Origin: a virus
IMG/VR virus record: IMGVR_UViG_3300040813_000155
Location: 1 to 32,959 of that record
Length of the DNA stretch: 32,959 nucleotides
Direction: 5' to 3' (one strand)
Made by a program: the position numbers and the translations under genes. A model generated the notes under the pieces. That model made no database searches. It was given only the letters and a program-made list of their open reading frames with translations, and had not been told where the DNA came from. This document shows, in pieces, positions 47-4,728 of the stretch; the first letter of the stretch is position 1; each line of letters begins with the position of its first letter.

Positions 47-1237
47 GTGTCTTTCTGCATAAGAAATATGCTATTAGAATCCGTAATAAACTTGGAAAAA
101 ACCTCAGGTTTTGCCGGGTTGATTGCTATGTTATCATGTACTCAATTACTTAAGCATAAATTACATGAAATCATGGTTGGAAAAACAGACACATCTATAG
201 ATTTAGATGATGATATACGCTTGCTCTCTAACCTGTCCAGGAGGACATCTAAGGATATAGCATTTAAGTCCATAAGGAAATATATTAGAAACCCCCTATC
301 CTCTTCTATCATCCTCCAAGCATGCAATATGACAGGACATAATGGCCAACTATATATTGACAAGGATTATACATCATCAACTAGTGTAGAATTAACCAGC
401 GGCTATACATTCCCCCTTTCAGCAGAGAAAAATTTTGCTGCTAGCACAAAACTAAAAGAGTGGAAAGAATATCATCCAAAAATCTTAATAATTGATGGGA
501 TTATAGAGACCGTTGGAGAGATCAATAGAGTCTTAGAGTATTTTCATAATGAAAAAAGGCCAGGGGTAATATTCGCCCGAGGGTTTAATGATGAAGTACT
601 CGGAACATTAGCTGTTAATAAAAGTCGCGAAACGCTAAATGTAATACCAGTTGTTGTACCATATGATCTTAACGGGATTAATATGCTAGTCGACTTAGCA
701 GTTGTTTGTGGGACGGATGTTGTTTCATCGCTTAAGGGTGATGTAATTTCTGGAATTGAACCAGCAGATATTGTAACTGTTGATAAGGTTGTCATTAATA
801 ATAGTGTGATTATATCAAACGAAAAAACAACTCATGATGTGAAAAGACATATCAACAACATCATTGATCAAAAACAAAATACTAGTGTTAGAGACAAAAA
901 GGATTTATTAGACAAAAGAACTAAAGCCTTAAGCTCGGTATGTACAAACATCAAGCTAGCAAGTAATCTTAATAATAAAGAGGCGATATATTTGCAAATT
1001 CAACATGGGATTAATATGCTAAAACATATCTGTAGATACGGGGTGGTTAACTCAGTTGATGCAATCTTACATGTAAAAAATCCGGGAGTTATAACCATGC
1101 TACAGACACTAATTGATAATGAGTTTCAATTTTTATCTGCAAGAGAATTAGCATTAGGACTAAAAACTGGAGAATCGTTAGCTAACAGCATTTTATCTTC
1201 GTCTGCATATCTAATATTAGATACTGATGATGGGTAA
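47..1237 (+). CDS. GroEL-like (group I chaperonin) protein, 5' partial, degenerate ATP site
   Basis: The protein aligns by eye with GroEL from about GroEL residue 75 onward. Residues ~92-120 match the start of the intermediate/apical region. Residues ~144-230 match the apical domain, including 'VIFARGFNDEVLGTLAVNK', corresponding to GroEL 'LIIAEDVEGEALATLVVNT'. Residues ~285-340 and ~370-392 match the equatorial helices. The nucleotide-binding residues are gone: the GDGTTT loop is GFAGLI (residues 21-26), the catalytic Asp398 position is His320, and the VAGGG stretch is VNSVD. It is therefore probably not an ATPase and may be an assembly scaffold or a modifier of host GroEL. The reading frame is open to the window edge, so GTG 47 is only the first usable start seen and ATG 68 is another; the true N-terminus is probably missing. 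The GTG stands beside an odd G+C-rich stretch (1-46). The next gene starts 2 bases after the stop. The family call is from pattern recognition, not a search. Confidence 0.72.
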   Translation: MSFCIRNMLLESVINLEKTSGFAGLIAMLSCTQLLKHKLHEIMVGKTDTSIDLDDDIRLLSNLSRRTSKDIAFKSIRKYIRNPLSSSIILQACNMTGHNGQLYIDKDYTSSTSVELTSGYTFPLSAEKNFAASTKLKEWKEYHPKILIIDGIIETVGEINRVLEYFHNEKRPGVIFARGFNDEVLGTLAVNKSRETLNVIPVVVPYDLNGINMLVDLAVVCGTDVVSSLKGDVISGIEPADIVTVDKVVINNSVIISNEKTTHDVKRHINNIIDQKQNTSVRDKKDLLDKRTKALSSVCTNIKLASNLNNKEAIYLQIQHGINMLKHICRYGVVNSVDAILHVKNPGVITMLQTLIDNEFQFLSARELALGLKTGESLANSILSSSAYLILDTDDG

Positions 1238-2516: not shown

Positions 2517-2759
2517 ATGAGTATTAAGAAATATGGTACTACTAGTTTAGAGTCTGCTGTGAAGGAAGTTGCAATGTCTAGAGAGATTGTAGCAGAAATC
2601 CTTAATTTTGGTGTCTCACAGCAACAAATCCTTCGTGTAGCCTATTTATTATCACTTGAATTAGAAAATAGAGAGATGATGATAGATATATCTGGATGCA
2701 TTAAGAAGCATATGGATAATTTGGGAGAACCCCAAAAGAAAAGCGTAATTGAAACTTAG
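2517..2759 (+). CDS. Hypothetical small helical protein
   Basis: An 80-aa, predominantly helical protein. Residues ~13-65 look like two or three amphipathic helices rich in Glu, Ile and Leu. No catalytic motif, signal peptide or membrane segment is visible. The ribosome-binding site GGAGGT overlaps the end of the preceding gene and supports the ATG. It is in a tight operon with its neighbours and overlaps none of them. Function unknown. Confidence 0.7.
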   Translation: MSIKKYGTTSLESAVKEVAMSREIVAEILNFGVSQQQILRVAYLLSLELENREMMIDISGCIKKHMDNLGEPQKKSVIET

Positions 2760-2769
2760 TGAGGATAAT

Positions 2770-2961
2770 ATGAGCGCAATTATTGATAAATGGAATGAAA
2801 TAAAGGTTCTAATGGAAAGCCTTGAGCTTGATGTACATAAGAATGCTAATGGAAATGCTTCCGCTGGTGTTCGAGCACGTCGCGGCCTTCGTGCCCTTAA
2901 GTCTTCTTCTGCAGAGCTAGTAAAGTTAACGATTCAAGAGGAGAAGGCCCGTAAAGGTTAG
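2770..2961 (+). CDS. Small Hc1/histone-H1-like protein
   Basis: A 63-aa protein of two predicted helices linked by a turn. The central motif KNANGNASAGVRARRGLRAL (residues ~26-45) resembles the 'GNKAAGxRxRK' core of chlamydial Hc1-type proteins and small phage histone-H1-like proteins. The basic face around the Arg cluster could bind DNA or RNA, so a role compacting phage or host DNA is plausible but inferred. ATG 2770 is preferred over an upstream TTG (2749) because GAGG stands just before it at a normal distance and the TTG would overlap the previous gene. The stop codon lies only 3 bases before the mature 5' end of the tmRNA. Confidence 0.58.
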   Translation: MSAIIDKWNEIKVLMESLELDVHKNANGNASAGVRARRGLRALKSSSAELVKLTIQEEKARKG

Positions 2962-2964
2962 TCA

Positions 2965-3305
2965 GGGGACGAAACGGATTCGACGGGGTAATGGAGATTA
3001 AGAGTGCAAGTAACCAACGGTAACAAGTGGTTTGACAATGTTACAAAATTTTAATTGCCAACAATAACGACAATTACGAATACGCCCTCGCGGCTTAATC
3101 GGGTGGCTGCCTAAAGCCATCTATCCAATTTAGGCTAAGTGGTTGATCCCACCGAAATAAACAAGATCAAAACTCCTTCGGCCACGGACTATGGAGGATA
3201 ACATACAGTGGATGCTTTGTTGGTTTAAAGAAACTAACTAAACTTGTGAATGACTTGAAATTAAAATTGTTTCGGACGCGGGTTCGACTCCCGCCGTCTC
3301 CACCA
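2965..3305 (+). ncRNA. ssrA: Transfer-messenger RNA (tmRNA), one-piece
   Basis: tmRNA rescues stalled ribosomes by acting first as tRNA-Ala and then as a short mRNA that tags the unfinished protein for proteolysis. The 5' acceptor strand GGGGACG (2965-2971) pairs over 7 positions with CGTCTCC (3295-3301). It includes the G3-U70 wobble that marks alanine identity. The T-arm is perfect: GCGGG (3278-3282), loop TTCGACT, CCCGC (3290-3294). Discriminator A (3302) and an encoded CCA (3303-3305) follow. The tag frame resumes at GCC 3057 and reads ANNNDNYEYALAA, then TAA (3096-3098); the ALAA end is the classic ClpXP degron. At 341 nt it is normal in length and not circularly permuted. It has no visible promoter of its own and is squeezed between two coding genes. 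smpB is not in the window. Confidence 0.96.
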
Positions 3306-3318
3306 TATGGAGATTATA

Positions 3319-4461
3319 ATGGCTAGCTATCTTTCTAACATTAGAAAAACTGGTACTAACAAAAGAGGAAAAAAAATGAGTACAAAAGATAAAGAAAACC
3401 AGGACGATACGTATATCAATCCTGCAGAGGATGATTGGGGATTCGTTGGTGGAATGGATGAGTCTGTTGTAGTCGATGATAGGCTGCTTCCAGACAATAC
3501 TGCAAAGAGTGCACTAAATTGCGGGTTTGTAGGAGTCGGCGGTGGCGGTGGCAAGCTGGCCAAGGCATTTTTAGACTTAGGGTTTAATAAGACACTCTTA
3601 GTTAACACTACAGAAAAAGATCAGCCTGGTGGTGTTGATGCTGCACACTTCTTAAACGTACCAGACACCGACGGTGTAGGGAAAGATGTTGATCTTGGTA
3701 AAAAAGTTTTAGCAGATAACAGCGCATTAGTAGAAGATGCATGCCGGAGCCGACTTGGAAAATTAGACTGGTTATTTGTATTAGCCGGCGGTGGCGGTGG
3801 CACTGGATCAGCATGTCATTCACTACATGGTGCTTTTGAACGATACCTTAAGAGCCTTGAATCAGATGGTAATGTGGTGTATATTGTTAGTAAGCCATCA
3901 GCGCAAGAACTATTAAACCCAGCTATCAAAACAAATTATGAAACCCTGCTAAATGATGTTGCAGGGGTACCCCATATCGTAATTGATAATGAAAGGCAAC
4001 TACAGTTGCTGCGCGGTAAGGTGGGTATGTTGAATATGTACCCAGCAGCTAACTCTGCATTTGCAAAAACAGTACATCAGGTACTTAAGCTAGCAGCGAC
4101 ACCATCCGAGATATCAGCGTTTGATTCTAATGATCTTGAAAGATGTTTATCTGTGCCTGGTAGAATATTCTTGGGAAGTACTGTTGTGAAGGACCCAAGT
4201 GGTCGTGATTTAGGCGCAACGGTTTTCCAAGGTAGCCTTAGGGGTTCCGCATGTCCGTCCCCCACAGGACATCCTGCGACCGGTGTGTTGCTGTTACTAG
4301 TAACATCGGCTATGGCTGGTGATCCAGATATTAGTAATAGGCTAGAAGCTGCTAGCGCATATGTTGGTGGTAGAGCAGACACACTTTTCTCTGGCATCTA
4401 TGTTAATGATAGTTTGCCTGGCTTAATTGCGCTAACGATATTCGGCGGAATGAAAGAATAA
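3319..4461 (+). CDS. FtsZ/tubulin-like GTPase
   Basis: A 380-aa protein of the tubulin/FtsZ superfamily. After a polar ~55-residue N-terminal extension, the Rossmann start reads GFVGVGGGGGKLAKA, like the FtsZ nucleotide-binding start. The tubulin signature loop is AGGGGGTGS (residues 156-164). The T7-like catalytic loop keeps the two aspartates of NxDxxD as D269 and D272, although the leading Asn is not kept. Polymerisation and GTP hydrolysis are thus plausible. No FtsZ-type C-terminal tail is seen. ATG 3319 is chosen over ATG 3307 because GGAG (3309-3312) sits correctly before 3319. In jumbo phages, tubulins such as PhuZ position DNA; here the role is inferred only. The gene begins 13 bases after the tmRNA 3' end. 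Confidence 0.82.
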   Translation: MASYLSNIRKTGTNKRGKKMSTKDKENQDDTYINPAEDDWGFVGGMDESVVVDDRLLPDNTAKSALNCGFVGVGGGGGKLAKAFLDLGFNKTLLVNTTEKDQPGGVDAAHFLNVPDTDGVGKDVDLGKKVLADNSALVEDACRSRLGKLDWLFVLAGGGGGTGSACHSLHGAFERYLKSLESDGNVVYIVSKPSAQELLNPAIKTNYETLLNDVAGVPHIVIDNERQLQLLRGKVGMLNMYPAANSAFAKTVHQVLKLAATPSEISAFDSNDLERCLSVPGRIFLGSTVVKDPSGRDLGATVFQGSLRGSACPSPTGHPATGVLLLLVTSAMAGDPDISNRLEAASAYVGGRADTLFSGIYVNDSLPGLIALTIFGGMKE

Positions 4462-4488
4462 CTAAAGACTTTTAAGGTCACCTTTAGT
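4461..4488 (+). terminator. Possible terminator hairpin between convergent genes
   Basis: ACTAAAG (4461-4467) pairs with CTTTAGT (4482-4488) around a 14-base loop. A T-run follows at about 4496-4500. The hairpin starts at the last base of the FtsZ-like stop codon and overlaps the 3' end of the convergent gene. The U-tract is 7 bases away from the stem, so this is weak. Confidence 0.35.
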
Positions 4489-4728
4489 CATTAGCTTTTT
4501 GAAAATTAATTTTTCAATTTGACATATTCTCATTCTGGTCACACCAAAAATATCACCTATTTCTTGGAGTGTTTTTTCACCTTGCCTGGCCGATATCATA
4601 ATACAATTTTGAGATTTATCACAAGACTGCCAATAACGGCAGTCTTTTTTTTGACATGGGACCTTGTGTTTTTCATGTTCATTATGGCATGTGGTGCCTA
4701 ATATTACTAATTCGCTCTTTTTCTTCAC
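4462..4728 (-). CDS. Small sigma-70 region-4-like protein with N-terminal Cys cluster
   Basis: An 88-aa protein on the minus strand. The C-terminal half (residues ~50-80, TLQEIGDIFGVTRMRICQIE) matches the helix-turn-helix of sigma-70 region 4, which contacts the -35 element. The N-terminal half has cysteines at positions typical of a metal-binding knuckle (CxxxxxxxxxxC...KKDCRYWQSC...C). Similar short Cys-rich sigma-like proteins occur in marine T4-like phages. It lacks region 2, so it cannot be a complete sigma factor; a co-activator or repressor role is inferred. The start is GTG at 4728-4726, supported by AGAGG about 6 bases upstream on that strand. The stop codons of this gene and of the FtsZ-like gene are adjacent, tail to tail. 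Confidence 0.72.
   Translation of the reverse strand: MKKKSELVILGTTCHNEHEKHKVPCQKKDCRYWQSCDKSQNCIMISARQGEKTLQEIGDIFGVTRMRICQIEKLIFKKLMTKGDLKSL

Follow-up and report, generated by a model that had tools for sequence, protein, structure and literature searches.

tmRNA rescues ribosomes that have become stuck and tags the incomplete proteins on them for degradation, and the locus described here raises the question of what such an RNA does in the genome of a virus. The window, by which we mean the whole 32,959-base stretch of DNA analysed, is a virus record with contractile-tail baseplate genes, PhoH, and a GroEL-like gene. ARAGORN finds a single tmRNA in it, with the tag ANNNDNYEYALAA (Table 1), and the Rfam covariance model RF00023 matches this gene end to end (128.3 bits against a gathering score of 47, E 4.1e-50, model positions 1-374). 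The acceptor stem reads GGGGACG/CGTCTCC and includes G3-U70, the T arm is normal, CCA is encoded, and the tag frame is open, degron-ending, and closed by a stop codon. This is a complete one-piece tmRNA gene borne by a large phage, the phage origin being supported by baseplate wedge homologues in the window, by the virus record itself, and by the presence of a tmRNA (RF00023 above cut-off) in 37 of 50 whole related viral contigs. An earlier note, written from the letters of the DNA, had proposed a complete phage tmRNA with G3-U70, an encoded CCA, and a 13-residue tag; coordinates, strand, and all of these features agree between ARAGORN, the sequence, and RF00023, and the covariance-model search by which it suggested checking the gene gave the strong full-length match above.

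Table 1. Features of the window, in order of position
Feature	Position	Strand	Basis or detail
GroEL-like protein	47-1237	+	phrog_5725 E 1.8e-21, residues 87-293; without Pfam match
Histone H1-like Hc1 gene	2749-2961	+	PF07432 E 4e-8; stop 3 nt upstream of tmRNA
One-piece tmRNA (ssrA) gene, CCA encoded	2965-3305	+	341 nt; ARAGORN, RF00023
Acceptor stem 5' arm GGGGACG	2965-2971	+	G3 at 2967; pairs with 3295-3301
PK1 (AACCA/TGGTT; GTAACA/TGTTAC)	3012-3044	+	93% and 86% of cells paired; two-sided changes
Tag frame ANNNDNYEYALAA and stop TAA	3057-3098	+	ARAGORN; GCC at 3057, TAA ends at 3098
PK2 (GGTGGCT/AGCCATC; GCCTAA/TTAGGC)	3102-3135	+	92% and 96% of cells paired
PK3 (GTGG/CCAC; TTGATC/GATCAA)	3139-3170	+	93% and 78% of cells paired
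PK4 (CTCC/GGAG; CCAC/GTGG)	3173-3211	+	Drawn for the window only; 48-54% of cells paired in the alignment
T arm, acceptor 3' arm (3295-3301, U70 at 3299), and ACCA	3278-3305	+	Sequence
FtsZ/tubulin-superfamily ORF	3307-4461	+	Begins 1 nt past tmRNA; true start maybe 3319 or later
Small protein with sigma-70 region 4	4462-4728	-	PF04545 E 2.8e-9

The gene directly downstream provides a way into the phage group. Its product has a weak Pfam Tubulin match (E 0.004), and the tubulin-type GGGTGS motif is invariant in 30 relatives. Searching with an AlphaFold model of the protein (mean pLDDT 83), Foldseek matched FtsZ and TubZ at E about 1e-19 (best 6e-20, TM at most 0.78 by target length) as well as phage FtsZ-like proteins and PhuZ, so that the predicted fold appears closest to FtsZ and TubZ. 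A tblastn search of 50,697 phage records did not find this FtsZ-like gene; among viral contigs it recruited 68 relatives, all of them metagenome contigs. Several relatives likewise have an Hc1 gene upstream of their tmRNA.

Within this group the tmRNA has a recurrent position and a wide distribution. A same-strand tmRNA called by ARAGORN lies at most 0.9 kb upstream of the FtsZ-like gene in 31 of the 61 contigs with at least 1.2 kb of upstream sequence. All 27 contigs of at least 65 kb carry a tmRNA, and the 13 contigs without one are all 61 kb or shorter; contigs of the group reach 284 kb. No SmpB gene was found in the 50 related contigs, which extend to 284 kb and may be fragments (PF01668; the same search was positive in 10 control bacterial genomes), and no tyrosine integrase, no SspB, and no ClpX above cut-off was found in the 28 relatives searched for each. 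The presence of the tmRNA in all of the long contigs, together with the non-finding of SmpB and integrase, indicates that it is core equipment of an uncultured group of large phages and argues against the remnant of an attachment site.

The RNA structure shows conservation as well. We aligned the window tmRNA with 22 others from related viral contigs and counted on these 23 sequences the structure drawn for the window. Across its 75 pairs, 87.2% of the cells pair, where shuffled columns give 76% and sliding the partners by 1-3 columns gives 40-48%; since the drawing derives from one of the aligned sequences this share is somewhat favored, which does not explain the two-sided changes found at 48 of the 75 pairs. 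All 23 sequences retain G3-U70 while acceptor pairs 4-6 covary through G-C, A-U, and C-G swaps, the T stem is paired in 100% of cells, and covariation is seen in P1, P2, and PK1-PK3, including two-sided changes at each of the six pairs in PK2's second stem. Four H-type pseudoknots can be drawn on the window sequence, the fourth of which receives no support from its relatives in this alignment. We read these patterns as indicating that the tmRNA structure is under selection.

The same appears to hold for the tag peptide. Sixty-eight distinct phage tmRNAs encode 26 different 13-residue peptides, in which Ala1, Asn2, Asn4, Ala10, Ala12, and Ala13 are invariant (68/68) and Leu11 is kept in 67 of 68, an invariance that is partly by construction because many of the viral sequences were retrieved by the tag pattern itself; the same tag class is found independently in contigs recruited through the FtsZ-like gene alone. 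The codons of Ala10, Ala12, and Ala13 vary in their third bases while the residues stay the same in 68/68. Synonymous changes make up 61% of codon differences among the 68 phage tags as against 22% of possible single changes, a ratio that counts related sequence pairs repeatedly and is not a test. Going by these codon patterns, the tag peptide is evidently under purifying selection. The class seems, moreover, to belong to viruses: a pattern scan found it in 90 viral contigs and in one contig among 84,980 prokaryotic species genomes, and in none of the bacterial chromosomes of those genomes, where the pattern demanded TAA as the stop codon and fixed classes of residue and could miss near variants. 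We rejected the single prokaryotic match (PBIO01000025.1, in a Halobacteriovorax MAG) as a phage contig sorted into a bacterial bin and not a chromosomal tag: it agrees base for base with IMG/VR 2788500220_000014 over its first 8,000 positions, both are 101,404 bases long, and the chromosomal tag of the MAG, ANNDFAPAMAA, is unlike the phage tag.

What would such a gene do? We consider it likely that this is a functional one-piece tmRNA of a large phage that looks non-integrating, serving ribosome rescue and clean-up during infection. Host enzymes charge G3-U70 RNAs with alanine, SmpB is required, and a C-terminal ALAA is a ClpXP-type degron. From this background we infer a course of expression, charging, partnership, and benefit. 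No promoter-like match lies on the plus strand between 2400 and 3857. The tmRNA, sitting in a tight same-strand gene row, would therefore probably be excised from a longer transcript, with trimming by the host's tRNA-processing enzymes. The host AlaRS would charge it through G3-U70, and host SmpB and EF-Tu would bring it to ribosomes that have stalled on broken mRNA, with the phage having to borrow SmpB from the host since none was found in the phages. The 13-residue tag would then be translated, tagged proteins would carry AANNNDNYEYALAA tails, and the ALAA end would direct them to a ClpXP-type protease. The likely benefit would be that, during the destruction of the host genome and its mRNAs, ribosomes are kept cycling and truncated proteins are cleared. 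Such a course presupposes a host whose SmpB, AlaRS, and ClpX are compatible with the phage RNA.

The sequence of the tag invites a different emphasis. The earlier note correctly saw that it differs from ANDENYALAA, and suggested that it could change which proteins are tagged. This second point is mistaken, because substrates are set by ribosome stalling and tmRNA-SmpB entry and not by the tag; the tag could alter only the fate of tagged proteins, never their choice. Changes of fate are the substance of a reading that we hold to be rather unlikely, in which the tmRNAs of phage and host compete and the retuned phage tag alters adaptor binding or the degradation of truncated proteins, which might for example be spared or recycled to the advantage of the phage. 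The virus-only distribution of the tag class fits this reading, and so do the conserved tag residues and the ClpP-like genes, which 17 of the 28 relatives carry and which in two of them lie some 400-500 nt past the tmRNA. However, the ALAA end is kept, which argues that degradation persists and that large changes in protein fate are not to be expected; the phages offer neither SspB nor a ClpX above cut-off; and in comparisons with family models the ClpP-like genes fit head-maturation protease families at least as well as ClpP. Because the head-maturation families score higher, the ClpP-like gene is at most a candidate for a dedicated partner of the tmRNA. Broader still, and in our estimate improbable, is a virus-only tmRNA lineage in which the tag would be selected independently of any single host and would feed a degradation route that suits the phage, perhaps together with the ClpP-like proteins of many relatives.

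Two further explanations are less likely still. The mycobacteriophage DS6A has a tag-less form of tmRNA that is reported to act as a decoy (PMC4131195), and by analogy with this precedent the phage RNA might titrate SmpB and block host trans-translation. A decoy would need none of the tag frame, stop codon, resume region, and PK1-PK3, yet all of these are conserved, and we regard such a role as very unlikely. Scarcely credible is a copy of an attachment site left behind by integration at a host ssrA: temperate phages often integrate at ssrA, and BLAST matches in the phage collection cover only the ssrA 3' end, but the gene here is complete, its structure is kept, and it holds a conserved position beside the FtsZ-like gene. 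We rejected this explanation on the lack of integrase in the 28 relatives. Rescue and clean-up by a functional tmRNA remain the reading that we prefer.

The relatives also show variation in the gene and its surroundings. ARAGORN misses a tmRNA at L012 8976-9315 (-), and likewise in the contigs of L013, L068, and L069; the L012 type has the T loop GGCAGTA instead of TTCGACT and the acceptor stem GGGCCCG/CGGGTCC, with G3-U70 kept. A 434-nt tmRNA in L164 (the contig of L042) and in the contig of L043 ends in CACTCAT, with CCA seemingly not encoded. The tmRNA at L023 5171-5513 (+) is nearly identical to that of the window in its PK3-PK4 part and different in its 5' half, a mosaic that suggests possible recombination within the gene. 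In two lineages (L023 5690-5765 and L057 5838-5911) the tmRNA is followed by a tRNA-Ala gene, and a ClpP-like serine protease gene lies downstream of the tmRNA at L162 3592-4206 (+), L163 5059-5565 (-), and L057 7782-8405 (+); by eye its Ser, His, and Asp seem to be where they should be, and the family models lean slightly towards head-maturation protease. Seven distinct tmRNAs found by the pattern (L091, L100, L111, L121, L124, L143, and L145) gave ARAGORN output that does not start with the acceptor stem, and we read them as apparently permuted, of the two-piece type. Their tags are ANDNVPFD[FY]ALAA or close forms; tags such as AANDNVPFDFALAA are nearly identical to the one-piece tag ANDNVEFDYALAA, a tag common to two gene forms.

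Some observations bear on the host and on the origin of the gene. The earlier note had hoped to infer the host from the nearest host tag, which fails for a tag class whose pattern matched no bacterial chromosome among the 84,980 species genomes. The co-binning with a Halobacteriovorax MAG is a weak hint, a baseplate gene of the window is about 30% identical to those of Flavobacterium and Microcystis phages, and the TerL family PF20441 gave no match. A tree built from 74 phage tmRNAs and 28 bacterial ones splits the two groups with 100/100 support, where the bacteria, a narrow sample for judging the origin of the phage tmRNA, are one Bdellovibrionota family and Salmonella only and the phage rows include L142, which has a false tag call.

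Phage tmRNAs as such are already known, and the earlier statement that only some phages have them is borne out by a survey that found tmRNA genes in 402 of 18,146 phage genomes (PMC9004378), and 79 phage sequences are listed in the current tmRNA database (PMC11915505). The gene described here shares with the bacterial one-piece tmRNAs of RF00023 the acceptor and T arms, G3-U70, CCA, pseudoknots PK1-PK3, and an ALAA-ending tag, with about 67% identity to the Salmonella tmRNA and 63% to the chromosomal tmRNA of a Bdellovibrionota MAG, and differs from them in being phage-borne and in its 13-residue AN[N/D]N tag, unmatched in the bacterial chromosomes searched. Like the older cases of the mycobacteriophage Bxz1 relatives and Bacillus phage G (PMC4131195), and like the huge phages, it is a complete tmRNA in a large phage genome; unlike the present group, in which no SmpB was found, the huge phages are reported to have both tmRNA and SmpB (PMC7162821). 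The marine OM43 phage Melnitz likewise offers the tmRNA of a large myophage, but one that is permuted, in two pieces, and behind a glutamine riboswitch (PMC9004378), whereas the present tmRNA is in one piece and an Rfam scan of the window found no riboswitch. A group-wide, apparently selected tmRNA for which no phage SmpB was found makes the reason that phages have tmRNAs testable by comparison: a tag simply copied from a host would be expected to have its counterpart in one. Phage tmRNAs have usually been recorded genome by genome; here the tmRNA is standard across a whole group of uncultured large phages, and what is new relative to the known systems is this fixed place together with a virus-only class of tag.
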